Program-made: the position numbers and the translations under genes
Shown: piece after piece, positions 46,446-55,011 of the stretch
Layout of the letters: each line of letters begins with the position of its first letter
Numbering within the stretch: the stretch's first letter is position 1
Notes under the pieces: generated by a model
Told to the model about the DNA's origin: nothing
Database searches by the model: none
What the model saw: only the letters and a program-made list of their open reading frames with translations
NCBI GenBank assembly: GCA_947598155.1
Contig: CANQFC010000002.1
Location: 1 to 64,000, forward strand
Length of the DNA: 64,000 nt
From: an uncultured Clostridia bacterium
Lineage (GTDB): Bacteria; Bacillota; Clostridia; Oscillospirales; Acutalibacteraceae
Direction of reading: 5' to 3'

Positions 46446-47207
46446 ATGAATATTTTAAATATGTCAAATATTCAAAAAAGCTTTGGCGGAAATCATGTTT
46501 TAAAAGATATTTCCATCAAGGTTGACAAAGGCGAAGTCGTATCGGTTATCGGCCCCTCAGGTTCGGGTAAATCAACGCTTTTGCGCTGTGCAACATTATT
46601 GGAAACGATTGACGGCGGCAAATTTTCATATATGGGCGAGGACGTTTGTTTTACTAAAAACGGTAAAATTGTTTACGATAAAAATTTGAATAAATTTCGC
46701 CATTATTTCGGACTGGTATTTCAGAATTTTAATCTGTTTCCGCATTGGTCAGTCCTTAAAAACATTACCGACGCGCCTGTTTCCGTTCAAGGACGAAATA
46801 AGCAGGAGGTAAAGCGGGAGGCGATGTCTTTGCTTGCAAAAATGGGGTTAGAGGATAAGGCAAACGCATACCCCGGAGAGCTTTCGGGCGGTCAACAGCA
46901 AAGGCTTTCAATAGTACGCGCTCTTGCGATGAAACCTGAAATCCTTTTCTTTGACGAGCCGACCTCCGCCCTTGACCCGGAACTGACAGGCGAGGTTTTA
47001 AAGGTTATAAAACAGCTTGCGGAAGAAAAAATGACCATGGTAATTGTTACTCACGAAATGGAGTTTGCCCGCGCCGTTTCAGACCGCGTAATTTTTATGG
47101 ACGGCGGCGTAATTGTAGAAGAGGGCACTCCCGAAGAGGTATTTTCCAACACTAAAATCGAACGTACAAAACAATTTCTTCAAAATTATAACAAGAATGA
47201 ATATTGA
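46446..47207 (+). CDS. Polar amino-acid ABC transporter ATPase (GlnQ-like)
   Basis: 253 residues. Walker [13 protein letters not shown]-loop [15 protein letters not shown], signature LSGGQQQR, Walker [14 protein letters not shown] and switch His in [10 protein letters not shown] are intact. A segment of about 15 residues ([17 protein letters not shown]) enlarges the Walker A-Q loop region. 12 bases after the permease; its last 11 bases overlap the next gene. Confidence 0.94.
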
Positions 47208-47976
47208 TTATTATTTGATAAATCCTACCGAAAATATCACTTTATTGGTTGAAACTCCTGTTACGCGGGAGCTTCAGCCTTTTGTCGCTTCTGAGCTTCT
47301 GCGCAAAGAAAAGCGCGGCGAGCAGGTGGGATTTATTGAAAACAGCGGCGAATACGACATTTCCGTCAGAATGGCCGGAGGGGAGTTTTGCGGAAACGCG
47401 GCTCTTTCTGCGGCGGCGCTCTGGTTAAAAGAAAACCCTAATAAAAATGAAATAAATGTTTGCCTATCGGGAATATCTTTATCTGTAAAGGTTTTGCAGA
47501 ACAGCGAAAGCAAATTCAAATTCAGCGCGTATCTAAAAAATGAGGCCGTTATTGATAAAATATCATTTGAGTATGGGAATAAATCTTTTTGCCTTCCGCT
47601 CGTTACATTGAGTGGAATTTCGCATATCATCGCGGAAAAATCCCGTATTGATTTTGAGCCCGAAAAAGTTATAAAGGAGCTTTGCAAAAAGATAAATTCA
47701 AGCGCCCTCGGTATAATGATATTCGACAGCAGTTTGAATACGCTTACTCCGCTTGTTTTCGTCGCCGAAGGCGATACTCTTTACTGGGAAAAATCCTGCG
47801 CAAGCGGTACGGCGGCTTTGGGAGCGTATCTCTTTCAAAAAACGGATAAAAAGGTGTCGCTGGATATAATTGAACCGGGCGGAATACTTAACATTACGGC
47901 AGGAAAAGACTGTCTTGTCCTTTCCGGAAATGCCGTTGTCGAGTACAAACGCAATACAGATATTTTAGTTTCTTGA
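47197..47976 (+). CDS. Diaminopimelate-epimerase-fold protein, likely an amino-acid racemase/epimerase
   Basis: 259 residues. Two symmetric domains, each with a catalytic Cys motif: [15 protein letters not shown] (about residues 66-80) and [14 protein letters not shown] (about 200-213), the pair used by cofactor-independent DapF-type epimerases. The rest differs strongly from housekeeping DapF, as in CntK-type histidine racemases. The 11-base overlap with the ATPase gene ties it to amino-acid import, so it may act on the imported amino acid. Specificity is not readable. Confidence 0.75.
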
Positions 47977-48097: not shown

Positions 48098-48111
48098 AGA
48101 CGGTGATTTAT

Positions 48112-48894
48112 GTGAAAAAGACAGTTTCGGTTTTACTTGCTGTATTCTTATTCGCTTTTTGCGCAATGCCGATTTTTGCGGCGAAAAGCGTAGAGTTTTC
48201 GGCCTCCGACAGCGAAGTCTTCGCGGGCGACGAATTTACGGTTGACATATTTATAAGCGATTATTCTCTCTTGAAGTCCGCGTCGCTTTTAGTTGAATAC
48301 GACAAAAATTCAATGGAGTTTCTTGATTTGAACGTCGGCGCGATTGTCACAGCCGGCAGTAAAGCCGTTTCGTATAAAGACGTCAAAGATTCCGGTAAAT
48401 CTTATGTTCAAATTGACTATAACGACTCGTCCGCGTCTTTGTCATCGGCAGGTAGATTTCTCTCTTTGACATTTGTCGCAAGCGATACGGCCTTCGGTGA
48501 AACGGACGTTAAGATAACCGCTGTCGGGAATAAAATTACTCTTGAGTCGGGTTCGGTCACTCCGAATTTTAAAAACGGTAAAATCAACATCATAAACAAC
48601 GACCCCAACGCAACTTTAAATTCATCTAAACCGCAGGACGAAACATCTTCTTCCGCCGCGCCGGATTCCGAAACGTCCTCTGAAACAAAAAGCTCATCTC
48701 AAAACGTTTCTGAAACTTCGTCTGAAAATTCAAACGCCGGTTCCGATAAAAATGAGGAAAACCGCAAAACTCATTTTGCGGTTGTTGCCGTCGCGGTTAC
48801 TGTTATTGTCATTTGCGCAGTACTCTTCGGCTCAATCGGAAACGGCGGCGGAAAAAAGCGGAAAAAGAAGAGAAAGAAAAGAAAATCTAAATAA
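48112..48894 (+). CDS. Membrane-anchored single-cohesin surface protein
   Basis: 260 residues from GTG 48112 (ACGGTGA upstream; GTG 48103 is less well placed). A signal peptide ends near AIFAA; then a cohesin-like beta-sandwich (about 25-165) with VFAGDEFTVDIFIS, SASLLVEYDKNSMEFL, GRFLSLTFVASDTAFGETDV; a Ser/Thr/Glu-rich linker (170-220); a C-terminal membrane helix (about 222-243) and a Lys/Arg stop-transfer tail. The cohesin would face outward and bind a dockerin. A dockerin protein lies 1.8 kb downstream. The cohesin assignment rests on pattern, not search. Confidence 0.72.
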   Translation: MKKTVSVLLAVFLFAFCAMPIFAAKSVEFSASDSEVFAGDEFTVDIFISDYSLLKSASLLVEYDKNSMEFLDLNVGAIVTAGSKAVSYKDVKDSGKSYVQIDYNDSSASLSSAGRFLSLTFVASDTAFGETDVKITAVGNKITLESGSVTPNFKNGKINIINNDPNATLNSSKPQDETSSSAAPDSETSSETKSSSQNVSETSSENSNAGSDKNEENRKTHFAVVAVAVTVIVICAVLFGSIGNGGGKKRKKKRKKRKSK

Positions 48895-48903
48895 GGTGAT
48901 TTT

Positions 48904-49095
48904 ATGAAAAATATTATTATAAAAGAATGTCCGTATTGCGGTTCAACAGACCTTACAAAGGGTTACCAAATGGGCGACGGTATAGTTTACAGGGATAAAG
49001 CCGCGGCTTTTGGCACGGTCGTTGAGCACACAATATGCAAAGATTGCTCAAGTATTGTTTACAGCAAGGTTGAAAAGCCCGAAATTTTAAAATAA
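48904..49095 (+). CDS. Small zinc-ribbon-like protein
   Basis: 63 residues with ECPYCGSTD and ICKDCSS, a C-x2-C pair at each end, as in zinc ribbons. It begins 9 bases after the cohesin gene with AAGGTGATTTT upstream. No function is known to me; the middle segment (YQMGDGIVYRDKAAAFG) has no recognisable motif. Confidence 0.7.
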   Translation: MKNIIIKECPYCGSTDLTKGYQMGDGIVYRDKAAAFGTVVEHTICKDCSSIVYSKVEKPEILK

Positions 49096-49121
49096 ATTTA
49101 ATATTTAATATTTAATATTTA
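49096..49121 (+). repeat. Seven-base tandem repeat
   Basis: About 3.7 copies of TTTAATA immediately after the zinc-ribbon gene. Confidence 0.8.
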
Positions 49122-49205
49122 AGCTCTCCTTATTCTACCGCGCGGCTGTTGCCGCGCCCTGCCGCGTTTAATGACGGGGCAAGGCCTTGATAGGAGAGCT
49201 TTTTG
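49122..49205 (+). terminator. Terminator whose loop holds a composite repeat
   Basis: AGCTCTCCT (49122-49130) pairs perfectly with AGGAGAGCT (49192-49200), followed by TTTTG. The 61-base loop is almost entirely the composite repeat (long copy 3). Confidence 0.75.
49138..49194 (+). repeat. Composite repeat, truncated copy 3 (includes short repeat copy 13)
   Basis: GCGCGGCTGTTGCCGCGCCC, TGCCGCG, then TTTAATGACGGGGCAAGGCC and TTGATAGG. It lacks the GGAATCAG hairpin of copies 1 and 2. Confidence 0.75.
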
Positions 49206-49266
49206 TTTTAAATTTTTTGGTTATATTTTCCTTTTCCGTCTCATATATCTTTTAGCGGTGATGATT

Positions 49267-49383
49267 ATGGAAAAGAAAAAAGAATTAACGGAAGAACAAA
49301 TCAAAATTATTAAACGACTTATTGAAAAGCAGATTTTGACGGAAAATCAGATAAAACGTCTTAAAAAGCAGGGAGTAATTTGA
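49267..49383 (+). CDS. 38-residue SHOCT-like miniprotein
   Basis: ATG 49267 (GGTG 8 bases upstream; ATG 49261 also in frame). The whole product is two short helices separated by a turn (ELTEEQIKIIKRLIEKQILTENQI), resembling the SHOCT C-terminal oligomerisation module but free-standing. It ends immediately before the TTG of the next gene, suggesting coupling. Function unknown. Confidence 0.5.
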   Translation: MEKKKELTEEQIKIIKRLIEKQILTENQIKRLKKQGVI

Positions 49384-50613
49384 TTGAAAAAAATAATATC
49401 GCTTTGCCTTGCGTTAGTACTGCTTTTTTCGTCCTGCGCTGATTCCTCCGAGGTCAATGACAAGACAACCCTGCCGGAGCATACGCCAAACAGTAAAACC
49501 GACAGCAAAAAAATTGTTGCGGCTTGGCTTTATTACAATGAGATTGAGGATTTGGTAAAAAAATCAAACTCAGAAAGCGAATTTATCGCAAATATAGAAA
49601 ATGCGGTTGATAAGCTGACTGATTTTTCCGTAAATACGCTGATTTTGCACATAAGAGCATTTGACGACGCGTTTTATGAATCAAAAATTTTCCCTGTAAG
49701 CAAATACTGCGCCGACAGTGACGGCGCTCTTAAATTTGACGTGCTGAAATGCTTTATCGGCGTTTGCCGAAAAAAGGGAGTAAAAATATGGGGTTGGATA
49801 AATCCTTACAGAATAAATAAAGAGGACGATGTTTCTGTAATAAAAAAGGGATTTTTTCAATATAAAGCTTTGTCGTCGGATAATAAGGAAATGCTTATCC
49901 GTTCGCCGAACGGAGTGTATTTTAACCCCGCCGACGAACAGGTAAAAAGGCATATTATAGAAGGAATACGCGAAGTTCTTGAAAATTATGACATCGACGG
50001 AATACATTTTGACGACTATTTTTATCCAGGAACGGACAGCGGAATTGACAGAGATTACTATGAAAAATATAAATCCGAAGGAGGCAGTTTGCCGCTTGCG
50101 GATTTTCGCCGTGAAAACGTTAATTCGCTGATTTTTTCCGTCTGTACGCTCGTAAGGAATTACGGTAAGGTGTTTTCAATAAGCCCCATAAGCAATATTG
50201 AGCAAAACGTTAACAGCTATTATGCGGACGTTAAACTCTGGGCAAAGTCCGATTCTTATGTTGACTACATAATTCCGCAAATTTATTTCGGACTGGAAAA
50301 TGCCGTTCAGCCGTTCGCCCAAACTCTGAAAAAATGGGTCGATTTAACGGGGGACAGCGAAAAATTGCTCATAGGTCTTGCGGTATATAAATCGGGTACT
50401 GCCGACACTTACGCAAAAGAAGGCAAAAACGAGTGGAAAAACCGCGATGTGATTTCAAAGGAAATTGATTTGATTTGCGAAAATTATAAAAACGTCGGTT
50501 TTGTTTTCTATTCGGCGTCGTTTCTCTATAATGACGGTGATGAAGGCCTGAAACTTGAAAAAAGCAATATATTAAACGCTCTTGAACGTCGTTTACCAGT
50601 ATCTGTAACTTGA
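49384..50613 (+). CDS. GHL10-family glycoside hydrolase-like lipoprotein
   Basis: 409 residues from TTG 49384. Lipobox LFSSC with lipidated C18. Residues 40-380 match the glycosyl-hydrolase-like 10 (YngK-type, DUF187) barrel: LILHIRAFDDAFYESKIFPVS, IWGWINPYR, GVYFNPADEQVKRHI, DGIHFDDYFYPG and DYIIPQIYFG. Members are outer-surface proteins presumed to act on cell-wall or complex glycans; no activity is firmly known for most. It lies between the cohesin and dockerin genes. Confidence 0.85.
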   Translation: MKKIISLCLALVLLFSSCADSSEVNDKTTLPEHTPNSKTDSKKIVAAWLYYNEIEDLVKKSNSESEFIANIENAVDKLTDFSVNTLILHIRAFDDAFYESKIFPVSKYCADSDGALKFDVLKCFIGVCRKKGVKIWGWINPYRINKEDDVSVIKKGFFQYKALSSDNKEMLIRSPNGVYFNPADEQVKRHIIEGIREVLENYDIDGIHFDDYFYPGTDSGIDRDYYEKYKSEGGSLPLADFRRENVNSLIFSVCTLVRNYGKVFSISPISNIEQNVNSYYADVKLWAKSDSYVDYIIPQIYFGLENAVQPFAQTLKKWVDLTGDSEKLLIGLAVYKSGTADTYAKEGKNEWKNRDVISKEIDLICENYKNVGFVFYSASFLYNDGDEGLKLEKSNILNALERRLPVSVT

Positions 50614-50638
50614 CAAAACAGCTCTTTTTTGATAATAT
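50610..50638 (+). promoter_or_regulatory. Promoter of the dockerin glucosaminidase gene, with palindrome
   Basis: TTGACA, 17 bases, TAATAT; the -35 overlaps the stop codon of the preceding gene. GATAATAT (50631-50638) and ATATTATC (50647-50654) make a perfect 8-bp inverted repeat covering the -10 and start region, a candidate operator. Confidence 0.75.
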
Positions 50639-50673
50639 AAAATCGCATATTATCGAAAAAAGGGAGCTATACA

Positions 50674-52542
50674 ATGACTCGGAATTTTTGCCGCAAGCTT
50701 ATATCCATTGTGTTGTGCGTTTCGTTCATTATAGGTATATTTTGCCTTTTTTCGGCGTCAGCCGCAGAATCATCAGGAACAATCAACAGCGATAAAGTAA
50801 ATATTCGCACCGGTGCCGGGACTGATTTCTCCGTTTTAAAAGACAGCGGAGGAAATAATATTCAGCTCTCGACAGGGCATAACGTTACGGTTCTTCAGAC
50901 TGTTAAAGCAGAAAATGACAAAACGTATGTTTCTTGGTATAAAATTAAATTTACATATAACAAAGCGGAGTACACAGGATACGCTTATTCGCAGTATGTA
51001 ACGATTACACCCGACGAGCATGATTACACAATGCCGGACGGCGTTCCCGAAGAGTACAAGCCATACATTGAAAACATCTTAAAATACTATCCTAAATGGA
51101 AATTCGTTTTTTATGATACGGGGCTCGAATGGTCCTCTCTTTTCGGCTCAAATCAGCAAGGGTACCCCGGCAGAAGCCTTATTCCCGAAAGCAGTCCTAT
51201 TTCATACCGTTCAACGGAGTCCGGCTGTTATGATTGGCGAAAAGATTCTTGGGTTATGCAGGACGCAGGCGGTTGGTATCAGGCAAACACTCAGACTATC
51301 GCTTACTATATGGACCCGAGAAATTTTCTAAATATAAACGATGTGTTTATGTTTGAAAGCCTTTCTTACGACAAGACTACTCAAACGCTTGACGGCGTTG
51401 AAAAAATTCTTGAAGGCTCGTTTATGGACGGCGTTAAGATAAAAAATACCGACAATAAATCCATAACGTATGCGCAGGCGTATATTGAAGCCGCAGAAAA
51501 AACAAAGGTTAGCCCTTATCACCTTGCCTCCCGTACTATTCAGGAGGTCAGTAAAGGCGGCAGTGATTCCGTAAAAGGGCAGGGCGCAGTTGTCGACGAT
51601 AAAGGTACCATAAAGTATAAAGGGTATTATAACTTCTATAATATCGGTGCAAGTCAAGGTGACCACCCGATTGCGAACGGCCTTAAATACGCGTCCGGCG
51701 AAACGTCTTCGGCCGCAAATAAAGAGAAATATATGTTGCCGTGGGATTCGCAGTATAAGGCCATTGTAGGCGGAGCAATTTGGATAGGCAACGGCTACAT
51801 AAACAGCATATACAAACAGAACACTATGTATTTTCAGAAATTTAATACGTCGGGCGGAAATGCCTCTCATCAATATATGGGTAATATTTTAGCGCCGTAT
51901 TATGAGGCAAAGACAATAAGAAATCTTTACAATGAACTCGGTATCCTGAACAAAAGCTTTACTTTTATCATACCTTACTACAAAAATATGCCCAAGACCG
52001 CCTGCAAGCTTCCCTCAAGCAGTAACGCCAATCCCAATAACTGGTTAAAAGCGCTGTATTTTATAGACAATTCCACAGACAAGGATTACATTTCCGGCTT
52101 TGACGGGGCAACATTGAACTGGGATGTTGGCACGCTTAAATCAAATAGCTTTACGGTTAAGGCAACTCCCGTAAACTCTCACGCCAAAGTGAGCGGCGTT
52201 GGTAAAATAACGCTGAAAGAGGGCAAAAATACGGTAAAAGTAGTTGTTACTGCCGAAAACGGCGATAAGCGAACTTATTCAATTACCGTCAATGTTACCG
52301 AATCCCCGCCCGTTACTGAGCCGCCTACGCCAACATCGCCGGATATTGTCATCGGTGACGTTGATATGAACGGCAAAATAGAAATAGCCGACGCGCTTTA
52401 TATCTTTAAGCATAAATCCGGTGAAAAAACTCTTTCTGCCAATGCGCAAAAGGCGGCTGACACAAACAAAAACGGGAATGTCGATATAGGCGACGCATTA
52501 TTTATTTTCAAATATAAAAGCGGGGAAATTAGCAAATTTTAG
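50674..52542 (+). CDS. Secreted SH3-glucosaminidase-dockerin cell-wall hydrolase
   Basis: 622 residues. Signal peptide (1-31); bacterial SH3 (about 35-112, VNIRTGAGTDFSVL); a GH73-like N-acetylglucosaminidase domain (about 205-410) with candidate catalytic E291 in HLASRTIQEVS and the YYNFYNIGAS motif; a cadherin-like beta-sandwich (about 455-542); a Pro/Thr linker; and a type I dockerin (560-622) with two calcium loops, DVDMNGKIEIAD and DTNKNGNVDIGD. It should cut peptidoglycan and dock onto a cohesin, plausibly the one at 48112. ATG 50674 after AGGGAGC. Confidence 0.87.
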   Translation: MTRNFCRKLISIVLCVSFIIGIFCLFSASAAESSGTINSDKVNIRTGAGTDFSVLKDSGGNNIQLSTGHNVTVLQTVKAENDKTYVSWYKIKFTYNKAEYTGYAYSQYVTITPDEHDYTMPDGVPEEYKPYIENILKYYPKWKFVFYDTGLEWSSLFGSNQQGYPGRSLIPESSPISYRSTESGCYDWRKDSWVMQDAGGWYQANTQTIAYYMDPRNFLNINDVFMFESLSYDKTTQTLDGVEKILEGSFMDGVKIKNTDNKSITYAQAYIEAAEKTKVSPYHLASRTIQEVSKGGSDSVKGQGAVVDDKGTIKYKGYYNFYNIGASQGDHPIANGLKYASGETSSAANKEKYMLPWDSQYKAIVGGAIWIGNGYINSIYKQNTMYFQKFNTSGGNASHQYMGNILAPYYEAKTIRNLYNELGILNKSFTFIIPYYKNMPKTACKLPSSSNANPNNWLKALYFIDNSTDKDYISGFDGATLNWDVGTLKSNSFTVKATPVNSHAKVSGVGKITLKEGKNTVKVVVTAENGDKRTYSITVNVTESPPVTEPPTPTSPDIVIGDVDMNGKIEIADALYIFKHKSGEKTLSANAQKAADTNKNGNVDIGDALFIFKYKSGEISKF

Positions 52543-52616: not shown

Positions 52617-54440
52617 TCAGTCGATTATTTCTTTTTCGTGGGATATTATATTGCCGGAAACAGCGTTAATTTCATAGCTGTATTCATAACCCGCGCAGTC
52701 AAATTCAATTTCATAAACTTGTATGCCGTCGTCACGCTCAAGCTCGCAGGTAAGCCTTTTTGCGTCAGCTGCGGAGACGCCCGCGTGCTTAAAGGCTGCG
52801 GCCTTTGCGGCGTCAGCGCTTATAAGCTTTGAACTGCCCGTATTTCCCGTATTGCCTGTACCTGCGGAGGAAGATTTATAATCGTCGTCCACTTCTTTTT
52901 CGTGGGATAATACTTTGCCTGAAACGGCGTCAATTTCATAGCTGTATTCATAACCTGCGCAGTCAAATTCAACGTCATAAACCTGCTTACCGTTCTCCCA
53001 TTCGAGCTTGCAGGTTATTCTTTTTGCGTTGGCCGCGGAGACGCCCGCGTGTCTGAAAGCCGCTGATTTTGCGGCGTCGGCGCCTATAAGATTTGAACTG
53101 CCCGTATTGCCTGTGCCGCCTGCGCTTGCAGAGGGAAATGTATAATCATCGTCTATTTCTCTATCGTGGGATATTATTTTGCCGGAAGTAGCGTCAATTT
53201 CATAGCTGTATTCATAACCCGTGCAGTCAAATTCAACGTCATAAACCTGCCTGCCGTTCTCCCATTCGAGCTTGCAGGTAACTTTTTTTGCGTTGGCCGC
53301 GGAGACGCCCGCGTGTTTGAAGGCCGCTGATTTTGCGGCGTCGGCGCCTATCAGCTTAGAACTGCCTGTATTGCCTGTATTGCCAGTGTTACCTGTGTTA
53401 CCTGTGTTACCTGTATTGCCTGTGTTACCCGCGTTTCCGGAGGAAGGTTTAACATCATCGTCTTTTTCCTTTTCACCGGATATTATCTTGCCGGATACCG
53501 CGTCAATGTCGTAACTGTATTCAAAACCGTTGCATTTAAATTCTATCTCATATACCATTATGCCCGATTCAAAATCTATTTCACAGCTGTAAGCGTAAAT
53601 GTCGGATTCTGCCGCGCCCACGTGGTTTAGGGCAATTTCTTTGGCCTTTGATTCACCGATGTATCCTTTGTCGCTTGCGGTACCGACAGATTCAACGCTG
53701 CCTATGTCTTCCGTACCGTGATTGGCGATGAGATTTAACTCGTTGATGGATAGAGCAACAAGGTCTTCAAATTTATAGCGGCTGTCATTGCTTACTATCT
53801 GCTGAATAAGCTGAGCCTTACCTGCGGAGATGCCGTATTTATCGGCAAGACTTTGTGTATCGTCGTTATGCTGTATGGTTTGGCTGAGAACTGCGCCGCT
53901 GAAAGAATCTGTTTGCAGCAACGAAGCTATCTTATCTGAGAGGCGCTTTTGCATTTCGGCGCTTCTCTCAGAGTTTTTGCCGTCTACGCTGACAAGAATT
54001 GAATTTGAAATGTCGTTAAGGTATCCGTTGCGAAGCATTGAACCTATAAGAGCGTTTACGGAGACGTCAAGCTTACTGCCTTTTAAGTTCATATCGCCCA
54101 GTACGGTTTTCCCGTCTTCATTAAGAGGTATAACTTCAAGTACGCTCTCATTGCGGTTTACCTTGATTTCAATGCTCGGATTTACGTCAAGTGAAACAGT
54201 GGAATCAACGGCGTAATTAGAAGAATAGTAGTTAAATCCGAATACGCCGAGGACTAAAATTACACAAGCCGCGGCTATACCTGCAACATACTTGTAGATA
54301 ACGTTTTTCTTTTTGTTTTCTTTCATAAAAATCACCTCTCCATTTTGTTCAACACAATCTGCTATAACGGAATCAAAAGAGTCCGGCGCGGCATTGTCAA
54401 ATGCCTGCTTGATTTTTGCTTCAATTTGCTTATTGGTCAT
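52617..54440 (-). CDS. RsgI-like transmembrane anti-sigma factor with four PepSY repeats
   Basis: 607 residues from ATG 54440. Cytoplasmic residues 1-48 (a putative sigma-binding segment unlike the usual RsgI N-domain), membrane helix about 50-70, then an RsgI-type ectodomain (75-180) with VSLDVNPSIEI; N87-P88 corresponds to the Asn-Pro bond cleaved autoproteolytically in Clostridium thermocellum RsgI. Four PepSY-like units follow (about 260-324, 363-427, 451-515, 538-603), the last three nearly identical, separated by Gly-Asn-Thr linkers. It overlaps the sigma gene by 11 bases and likely holds it inactive until an outside signal. Confidence 0.82.
   Translation of the reverse strand: MTNKQIEAKIKQAFDNAAPDSFDSVIADCVEQNGEVIFMKENKKKNVIYKYVAGIAAACVILVLGVFGFNYYSSNYAVDSTVSLDVNPSIEIKVNRNESVLEVIPLNEDGKTVLGDMNLKGSKLDVSVNALIGSMLRNGYLNDISNSILVSVDGKNSERSAEMQKRLSDKIASLLQTDSFSGAVLSQTIQHNDDTQSLADKYGISAGKAQLIQQIVSNDSRYKFEDLVALSINELNLIANHGTEDIGSVESVGTASDKGYIGESKAKEIALNHVGAAESDIYAYSCEIDFESGIMVYEIEFKCNGFEYSYDIDAVSGKIISGEKEKDDDVKPSSGNAGNTGNTGNTGNTGNTGNTGNTGSSKLIGADAAKSAAFKHAGVSAANAKKVTCKLEWENGRQVYDVEFDCTGYEYSYEIDATSGKIISHDREIDDDYTFPSASAGGTGNTGSSNLIGADAAKSAAFRHAGVSAANAKRITCKLEWENGKQVYDVEFDCAGYEYSYEIDAVSGKVLSHEKEVDDDYKSSSAGTGNTGNTGSSKLISADAAKAAAFKHAGVSAADAKRLTCELERDDGIQVYEIEFDCAGYEYSYEINAVSGNIISHEKEIID
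52632..53354 (-). repeat. Three near-identical PepSY-coding repeats
   Basis: Units at about 53160-53354, 52896-53096 and 52632-52835 share long identical DNA stretches, pointing to recent tandem duplication or ongoing homogenisation. Confidence 0.85.
53367..53432 (-). repeat. Nine-base minisatellite coding (Gly-Asn-Thr)n
   Basis: About seven copies of a 9-base unit (plus-strand sense TGTTACCTG / TATTGCCTG) coding the linker before the second PepSY unit. Copy number could vary by slippage without breaking the frame. Confidence 0.85.
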
Positions 54441-55011
54441 CACTTTCCCCTCCGTTATATAATTCTCTTAGCTTTTTGATTGACCTGTTGTATTTTGAAA
54501 GAACAGTCGGCAGTGGAATGCCCAAAATTGAAGCGATTTCACGGTGCTTAAACCCTGTCACAGCATGGAGTACTATGATTTGCCGCTCTTCGTCGGAAAG
54601 CGCTTTCATACATTTTTCAAGTACGATTTTGTCATCTGCGGACGCTTGCGGCGGAAGCTCTAAATACAGCTCTCTCTCATCTTGCGGAAAATCGGAAGTT
54701 TTATTTCTTTCTCTCAGCTTTTGTATGCACAAATTATGAGCGATTGTCATTATCCAGGATTTTCCTTTTCCGTTTCCTCGGTAGGAGGGCGCCGCCTTGT
54801 AAATATTTACAAAGCAATCGTGAAGAACGTCCTCAGCGTCATACGTATTTTTGAGAATTGAGAGCGCATAACCGTAAACAGAACTTTTCATAGTTTTGTA
54901 AAGAGTTTCAAAAGCGTCGGTATTTCCTTGGGAAATACTGTAAATCAACTCATCGGGGACATCTGACTGCGTTTCAAGTCCGTTTTTGATAATTGACGTC
55001 AAAATTATCAT
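54430..55011 (-). CDS. ECF-type RNA polymerase sigma factor
   Basis: 193 residues. Region 2 (AFETLYKTMKSSVYGYALSILKNTYDAEDVLHDCFVNIYK) binds the -10 and core enzyme; region 4 (LSDEERQIIVLHAVTGFKHREIASILGIPLPTVLSKYNRSIKKL) binds the -35. It is paired with the overlapping RsgI-like anti-sigma. RsgI proteins normally partner SigI, so an ECF partner is a variation. Probable targets are surface glycan genes nearby, by analogy. ATG 55011 has an AAAGGA site about 11 bases upstream. Confidence 0.9.
   Translation of the reverse strand: MIILTSIIKNGLETQSDVPDELIYSISQGNTDAFETLYKTMKSSVYGYALSILKNTYDAEDVLHDCFVNIYKAAPSYRGNGKGKSWIMTIAHNLCIQKLRERNKTSDFPQDERELYLELPPQASADDKIVLEKCMKALSDEERQIIVLHAVTGFKHREIASILGIPLPTVLSKYNRSIKKLRELYNGGESDDQ

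Follow-up and report, generated by a model that had tools for sequence, protein, structure and literature searches.

The interplay of cohesin, a jelly-roll fold, with dockerin is usually described as a nutritional machine. Here we analyse a 64,000-nucleotide stretch of DNA from an uncultured bacterium of the Acutalibacteraceae (class Clostridia; assembly GCA_947598155.1, contig CANQFC010000002.1, positions 1 to 64,000; hereafter the window), in which a gene for a membrane-anchored protein with a single cohesin lies close to a gene for a peptidoglycan glucosaminidase that carries a dockerin. This gene pair is probably a new variant of cohesin-dockerin anchoring, that is, a monovalent tether for an endogenous wall hydrolase.

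Several described systems come close to this arrangement (the papers cited by PMC number are represented here by parts of their text). ScaE of Ruminococcus flavefaciens attaches a dockerin protein to the cell through its one cohesin (PMC2930009), and Lachnoclostridium sp. MSJ-17 encodes single-cohesin proteins with a C-terminal transmembrane (TM) helix (PMC11557425). ScaE resembles the window protein as a single-cohesin cell anchor, but its attachment is by sortase and what it holds is the scaffoldin ScaB rather than an enzyme; the MSJ-17 proteins share the architecture, and in those parts of PMC11557425 no specific wall-hydrolase partner is named for them. Dockerin-bearing wall hydrolases are in print as well, under the term "lyticome" for enzymes such as a Ruminococcus champanellensis lysozyme (PMC6403190) and as a table entry for an enzyme of glycoside hydrolase (GH) family 73 with a dockerin in Ruminococcus albus (PMC4081043). 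Like the window enzyme, these pair a wall hydrolase with a dockerin; PMC6403190 connects them with a scaffoldin or a cellulosome, PMC4081043 gives them only as table entries, and the parts of the two papers contain no dedicated membrane cohesin. The Ruminococcus bromii amylosome (PMC5814915) and the Limousia mucinolysome (PMC12997984) are non-cellulose cohesin-dockerin systems of gut Clostridia with cell-surface cohesins, but, unlike the window pair, they are nutritional multi-enzyme complexes. Finally, in Staphylococcus aureus the glucosaminidase SagB works together with a membrane protein, SpdC, to give glycan products of the right length (PMC12272431). The window locus likewise combines a relative of this glucosaminidase (by profile match to PDB entry 6u0o) with a proposed membrane partner; SpdC, however, an integral membrane protein, belongs to the CAAX protease family and is not a cohesin, whereas the window cohesin protein is predicted to be single-pass.

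Compared with the type I cellulosomes of Clostridium thermocellum and R. flavefaciens, the window has the same dockerin and cohesin families (by Pfam and by sequence match to PDB entries) and two similar dockerin repeats, but it differs in that each anchor carries a single cohesin, the client is a wall hydrolase rather than a plant-polysaccharide enzyme and the anchor is a TM helix; no multi-cohesin protein was seen. An earlier note on this DNA, made from the sequence, knew of no description of such a use of the cohesin-dockerin pair. We found no report of a dedicated glucosaminidase-cohesin pair among the open-licence papers listed for dockerins, wall hydrolases and non-cellulosomal cohesins; its two ingredients, dockerin-bearing wall hydrolases (PMC6403190) and TM single cohesins (PMC11557425), are each known.

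The cohesin gene and the glucosaminidase gene

On the + strand, the cohesin open reading frame (ORF, 48103-48894) is followed after 489 base pairs (bp) by a GHL10 ORF (49384-50613) and after a further 60 bp by the dockerin ORF (50674-52542):

48103..48894, + strand: membrane-anchored single-cohesin protein ("C2-type"), 263 amino acids (aa); Pfam, with orthologues in three genus relatives
48202..48591, + strand: cohesin domain, PF00963, residues 34-163
48772..48840, + strand: predicted C-terminal transmembrane helix, then a Lys/Arg-rich tail; hydropathy by eye
49384..50613, + strand: putative lipoprotein with GHL10 domain (PF02638; Pfam E-value 1.8e-37, 129.6 bits)
50674..52542, + strand: secreted dockerin-bearing glucosaminidase, 622 aa; Pfam and PDB homology
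51544..51546, + strand: codon of the invariant Glu291, which aligns with the Glu of ALLETG in S. aureus Atl (6fxo)
52351..52539, + strand: type I dockerin with two similar calcium-loop repeats, PF00404

The 48103-48894 product consists of an N-terminal signal peptide, the cohesin, a Ser/Thr-rich linker, a C-terminal helix and a Lys/Arg tail, with the signal peptide and membrane helix judged by eye from sequence hydropathy. The earlier note had started this protein at 48112, an in-frame start three codons into the ORF, and had read it as a single membrane-anchored cohesin. The Pfam hidden Markov model (HMM) PF00963 agrees, matching the whole protein with 33.3 bits (E-value: 6.5e-8) against a cut-off of 24.1 bits, the domain alone with 36.0 bits and the same domain in a whole-genome search with 35.6 bits; the helix was seen by eye. 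A profile (A5) of this cohesin's family also matches PDB cohesins at the sequence level. The Pfam scan of the product gave no Cadherin-like match.

The 50674-52542 product comprises a signal, an SH3-like domain, a catalytic domain of LYZ2/GH73 type, a Cadherin-like domain and the C-terminal dockerin. That the dockerin sits on a peptidoglycan glucosaminidase, as the same note had it, is borne out by homology to solved structures and by the catalytic glutamate but not by PF01832, which had no match at E ≤ 1 in the enzyme or in the whole genome and was dropped as an enzyme test in favour of PDB homology. The enzyme core shows homology to chains of known structure from Atl, AtlE and N-acetylglucosaminidases (Atl 6fxo, E-value: 3e-13), and the best PDB match with the family profile is 6u0o (E-value: 6.6e-36), which we take to be SagB. 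Glu291 is invariant in both enzyme alignments (A2 and A3).

The dockerin occupies residues 561-614 (PF00404, E-value: 1.2e-7, 32.2 bits, cut-off 22.9) and keeps D-x-D/N-x-N...D in both calcium loops. Its two repeats have I-A/F-K and I-G/F-K at positions 10/11 and 17/18, which PMC4081043 gives as recognition residues. With the dockerins of four orthologous glucosaminidases (genomes G250, G504, G559 and G621) it shares 56-67% identity, with the seven others in its own genome only 22-32%; the IA/IG, FK-like pattern is found in all four of the former and in none of the latter. The spacing of 1.8 kb between the cohesin and glucosaminidase genes and the intervening GHL10 lipoprotein were also described correctly before, GHL10 being assigned by Pfam and the lipobox-like signal by eye. 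A GHL10 homologue lies close to the glucosaminidase in several relatives as well.

We hold with moderate confidence that the two genes encode a monovalent, calcium-dependent tether for the cell's own peptidoglycan glucosaminidase. The enzyme would be secreted, and its C-terminal dockerin would bind the single cohesin of the membrane-anchored protein. Such a tether would keep the enzyme at the membrane-wall interface, as opposed to diffusing off or relying on wall binding alone, and the enzyme might there cut nascent or septal glycan strands, as S. aureus SagB does with its membrane partner SpdC. The cohesin anchor would thus be a modular plug serving the same end as SagB-SpdC, glycan products of the right length. 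We infer the binding of the window dockerin to the 48103 cohesin, its calcium dependence, the location and the physiological role alike.

Recurrence of the gene pair and co-divergence of its domains

Enzyme loci were gathered from three samples. In the family sample, 55 of 250 genomes matched the enzyme at E ≤ 1e-10 (five of them via the C-terminal 120 residues alone), 166 had a PF00963 match at E ≤ 0.001, and 40 neighbourhoods were taken from the 63 listed enzyme matches. A scan of named genomes added 79 loci; here the best 80 of at least 558 relatives were kept by similarity to a dockerin-bearing query, a ranking that biases this sample towards dockerins. An order-wide search, in which 47 of 395 genomes matched, added another 20. 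Of the 139 loci, 137 contained the enzyme by an HMM built for this analysis (L086 and L114 were removed as having no enzyme by this HMM), and dropping near-copies at 95% identity left 128, seven with the neighbour off the contig.

In this non-redundant set, dockerin-bearing glucosaminidases are followed by a cohesin gene on the same strand in 60 cases, have a divergent one in 8 and none in 18, with 2 off the contig. A cohesin gene is therefore next door to 68 of the 86 enzymes with readable neighbourhoods (the window itself is outside this count), compared with a background of 3 cohesins among 1075 other ORFs (≥ 150 aa) of the same neighbourhoods. For example, in G098, from the same genus, GHL10 is followed by the enzyme with its dockerin and, 14 bp on, by a cohesin-TM gene. 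In the family sample, 23 downstream cohesin-type genes were spotted by eye; when these and the window protein were scanned with Pfam at E ≤ 0.01, 13 of the 24 matched Cohesin and 22 matched Cadherin-like. The divergent partners are recognised by whole-protein Pfam in one of seven cases and by domain scans in two of three further ones tried (Ruminococcus bicirculans at 51.2 bits), and their profile matches PDB cohesins (E-value: 3.4e-5). In R. bicirculans 80/3 (L119:3982-7740), the cohesin membrane gene is divergent from the dockerin glucosaminidase gene.

Twelve whole genomes with a dockerin enzyme and an adjacent cohesin (G251 and G268-G278) were searched with PF00404 at E ≤ 0.001: seven have one match, one has none and four have 2-8. 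By coordinate arithmetic, the sole match in each of the seven falls inside the glucosaminidase. In five of these, PF00963 (E ≤ 0.01) matches the adjacent gene (G251, R. bicirculans 80/3; G268; G271; G274; and G276, Pseudoflavonifractor sp. An44); G270 has its PF00963 match elsewhere and G278 has none at this threshold. G251 and G274 each contain a second, weaker PF00963 match elsewhere in the genome. The pairing of cohesin and dockerin around a wall enzyme, proposed for the window alone, thus recurs as an adjacent gene pair in many genomes, some with one PF00404 match genome-wide. These side-by-side genes suggest that a coupling associated with plant fibre also holds a gut bacterium's own wall enzyme at the surface.

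The dockerin and the adjacent cohesin also diverge in a correlated manner. Mantel tests (rank correlation of distances, 2000 permutations) on 58 deduplicated pairs with downstream partners gave r = 0.42 for dockerin and cohesin, 0.28 for dockerin and its own catalytic domain and 0.32 for dockerin and the rest of the partner. Partialling out the catalytic domain left r = 0.36 for dockerin and cohesin (permutation p = 0.0005, a test that removes phylogeny only in part) and 0.24 for dockerin and the rest of the partner. Bootstrap support for the cohesin was 0.94 over the catalytic domain and 0.955 over the rest of the partner.

Possible partners and contacts of the glucosaminidase in the window genome

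The window genome (2.14 Mb, 99.7% complete) was searched as a whole for both domains. PF00963 matches four places on four different contigs, two of them over the cut-off: the window cohesin (35.6 bits) and a second protein, encoded on contig C9 and called C9 here (42.2 bits), which has a cohesin, two Big_2 domains and, judged by eye, a hydrophobic helix at its C-terminus. PF00404 matches eight places, all over the cut-off. Besides the window glucosaminidase, these lie in an alpha/beta hydrolase, a subtilase, a transglutaminase-like protein, a leucine-rich repeat (LRR) protein of BspA type and an Rv2525c-like glycosidase with PG_binding_1; the last two proteins are a large one that matches FIVAR weakly and one with a weak cohesin-like match at its N-terminus. 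No multi-cohesin protein was seen in this genome (PF00963, four places; profile A4, five places, no two in one protein), and Pfam scans of the eight dockerin proteins gave no plant-polysaccharide GH family. Whole-protein Pfam scans had no cohesin match in the C9 protein, its G250 orthologue or the R. bicirculans protein, although the genome searches had matched; since domain-only scans score 42.7, 44.3 and 51.2 bits, respectively, we attribute these misses to an HMMER filter effect.

With eight dockerins and two cohesins over cut-off and no two-cohesin protein seen, the window genome holds a small non-cellulosomal cohesin-dockerin system with several clients, not a single pair. The contrast with classical cellulosomes drawn in the earlier note therefore holds in this genome, but its picture of a minimal, one-to-one system devoted to the wall does not: a strict one-to-one relation is ruled out, and the clients include a subtilase, a transglutaminase-like protein and an LRR protein. 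What remains of the idea is that its parts are real and that the pairing recurs.

Several observations weigh against the proposed tether. First, some concern the counts: of the 24 proteins that seeded the cohesin HMM, 23 are among the counted loci, and seven of the eight divergent loci seeded the HMM for divergent genes. Among the loci outside the seed (L115 onward), 60 testable dockerin-bearing enzymes have a downstream cohesin in 37 cases, a divergent one in 8 and neither in 15. Second, all nine Mantel correlations, controls included, have p ≤ 0.001, so that the weight rests on the differences between correlations; at the level of alignment columns, mutual information did not discriminate, the recognition positions being coupled as strongly to the catalytic domain as to the cohesin (the group means of this analysis are "not a number", NaN, owing to constant columns). 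Third, the window's own adjacency is less telling than its appearance suggests, because the two genes are apart in three close relatives and because the counting rule would score the window as "none", its cohesin gene lying two genes upstream on the same strand. In these relatives (G504, G559 and G621) the genes are unlinked, and no cohesin was found next to the GHL10-enzyme pair. Fourth, the C9-type cohesin is present in all five genomes in which the window dockerin class was seen (G000, the window genome; G250; G504; G559; and G621), and genome searches of G250, the completeness of which is not established, found no window-type cohesin. Fifth, the cohesin-like neighbour is shared by enzymes that lack a dockerin: of the dockerin-less glucosaminidases, 23 have a downstream cohesin-like gene, 12 have none and 5 are off the contig (23/35, Fisher p = 0.16 versus the dockerin-bearing class). 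In Lachnospiraceae the enzyme is often dockerin-less but still has a cohesin-like TM gene after it (e.g. L158, L128 and L152), and PF00404 at E ≤ 0.001 has no match in 8 of 14 searched genomes with a dockerin-less pair. As 23 of the 35 loci keep the gene and eight of these genomes are without a PF00404 match, the partner gene does not require a dockerin and has a role that can do without one.

The fourth of these points bears on the alternative that survives best, namely that the C9 membrane-anchored cohesin tethers the glucosaminidase while the 48103 cohesin has another client or none. We regard this as unlikely. C9-type cohesins cover five of the five genomes, compared with four for the window type, and C9 is the stronger PF00963 match (42.2 versus 35.6 bits in the genome search, 42.7 versus 36.0 for the domain alone). 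However, G000 and G250 hold a second dockerin class (e.g. AF/DL, IF/DC with TT/RN, IN/KN) that also needs a cohesin, and the 48103 gene is the linked one in the window, linkage of a glucosaminidase dockerin with a cohesin being common elsewhere. Furthermore, G504, G559 and G621 (98-99% complete, window dockerin class) each contain an orthologue of the window cohesin, of similar size and 29-31% identical over a whole-length alignment; with the window protein as query, these three score 72-92 bits and the next best match 20.9 bits (30 loci kept). In G504 and G621 the orthologue lies behind ABC transporter genes, as in the window minus ORF 47197, and in G559 it lies in the same region without these transporter genes, beside genes that we take to be ligA and a pseudouridine synthase gene. 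Of the two cohesins, we clearly favour that of the window as the enzyme's partner.

A second alternative, which we consider improbable, builds on the dockerin-less loci: the membrane protein would partner the enzyme through non-dockerin contacts (e.g. the Cadherin-like and following domains), as SpdC does SagB, the cohesin-like domain being secondary and the dockerin a lineage add-on. Besides the 23 dockerin-less loci and the eight genomes without PF00404, it is favoured by the G200 protein at the position of the window cohesin, which has a Cadherin-like domain and TM helix and no cohesin match, and by the distribution of dockerins on a quick tree of 127 enzymes, which needs 10 changes (gains or losses), at least 6 of them forced by supported branches. 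The profile of cohesin-like proteins from dockerin-less pairs matches PDB cohesins over about its first 55 positions (best E-value: 4.3e-6). On the other side, Cadherin-like is not matched in the window protein, whose alignment with the three orthologues spans its full length, and dockerin distance tracks the cohesin over the rest of the partner (partial r of 0.36 versus 0.24; bootstrap 0.955). Adjacency as a hallmark of dockerin-bearing enzymes only, as the family sample had indicated (the gene was absent from all seven dockerin-less enzymes with a readable neighbour), was rejected on the full non-redundant set (23/35).

Very unlikely, in our view, is a lyticome role, in which the dockerin would mount the enzyme to attack other bacteria or free nutrients from foreign walls. 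The concept and dockerin-bearing wall hydrolases are already in print (PMC6403190), and the other dockerin proteins of the window genome include the glycosidase with peptidoglycan-binding domains and the subtilase; a membrane-anchored monovalent cohesin, however, would keep the enzyme on its producer, and the closest PDB matches of the enzyme, Atl and 6u0o, work on the wall of the cell that makes them. That two unrelated surface genes lie close together by chance is least probable of all: despite the unlinked genes in three close relatives and the 489-bp gap and GHL10 gene in the window, the general pairing is far above background and the linkage of ABC transporter, GHL10 and glucosaminidase genes recurs in G200, G510 and partly G608.

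If the glucosaminidase is indeed tethered by its adjacent cohesin, cohesin and dockerin would contribute to maintaining the cell envelope of many gut Clostridia, the cultured R. bicirculans and Pseudoflavonifractor among them, and would provide these bacteria with a modular counterpart of SagB-SpdC. Such pairs would be overlooked by surveys that demand a multi-cohesin protein. The survey in PMC11557425 selected genomes for the presence of a multi-cohesin protein and a dockerin-GH, at least one of each. The pairing also bears on how cellulosomes arose. Endogenous glucosaminidase tethering might be a widespread, ancient housekeeping use in Clostridia, one-to-one where no other dockerin is detected, with nutritional cellulosomes as later multivalent elaborations; we put this forward as a speculative scenario that is rather doubtful at present.

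Neighbouring genes and related loci

One conserved neighbour upstream of the cohesin gene is listed for context only:

47197..47976, + strand: ORF with a weak DAP_epimerase match, under the cut-off

It is located between an amino-acid ABC transporter and the cohesin gene, and in L076 and L228 its homologues follow the same transporter gene. On the - strand, positions 52617-55011 run convergent with the glucosaminidase gene and encode a sigma factor of ECF type (Sigma70_r2, r4) together with an anti-sigma-like protein (RsgI_M) that has four PepSY repeats. Elsewhere, factors of RsgI type are regulators of cellulosome genes.

Other loci show variations on the architecture. In L241 (3502-4932, +), a cohesin-like domain and a dockerin are combined in one gene directly upstream of a dockerin-bearing glucosaminidase gene, and L133, probably the same contig, has the same arrangement. 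The gene downstream of the dockerin-bearing glucosaminidase in L183 (7964-9436, +) encodes a partner with a Cadherin-like match, a C-terminal hydrophobic helix and an N-terminal domain without a cohesin match. G200, of the same genus as the window, has 31 PF00404 matches (E ≤ 0.001) and a single PF00963 match (E ≤ 0.01), the latter in a 205-aa single-cohesin TM protein (L195:2376-2993, -). The 13 G200 dockerins examined, including those of the glucosaminidase and of an Amidase_3 protein, share a DA(K/R) recognition-helix motif. In L076 (4653-8186, +), two Amidase_3 genes lie between the GHL10 and glucosaminidase genes, and one of them encodes an N-terminal dockerin, making it a second dockerin-bearing wall hydrolase.

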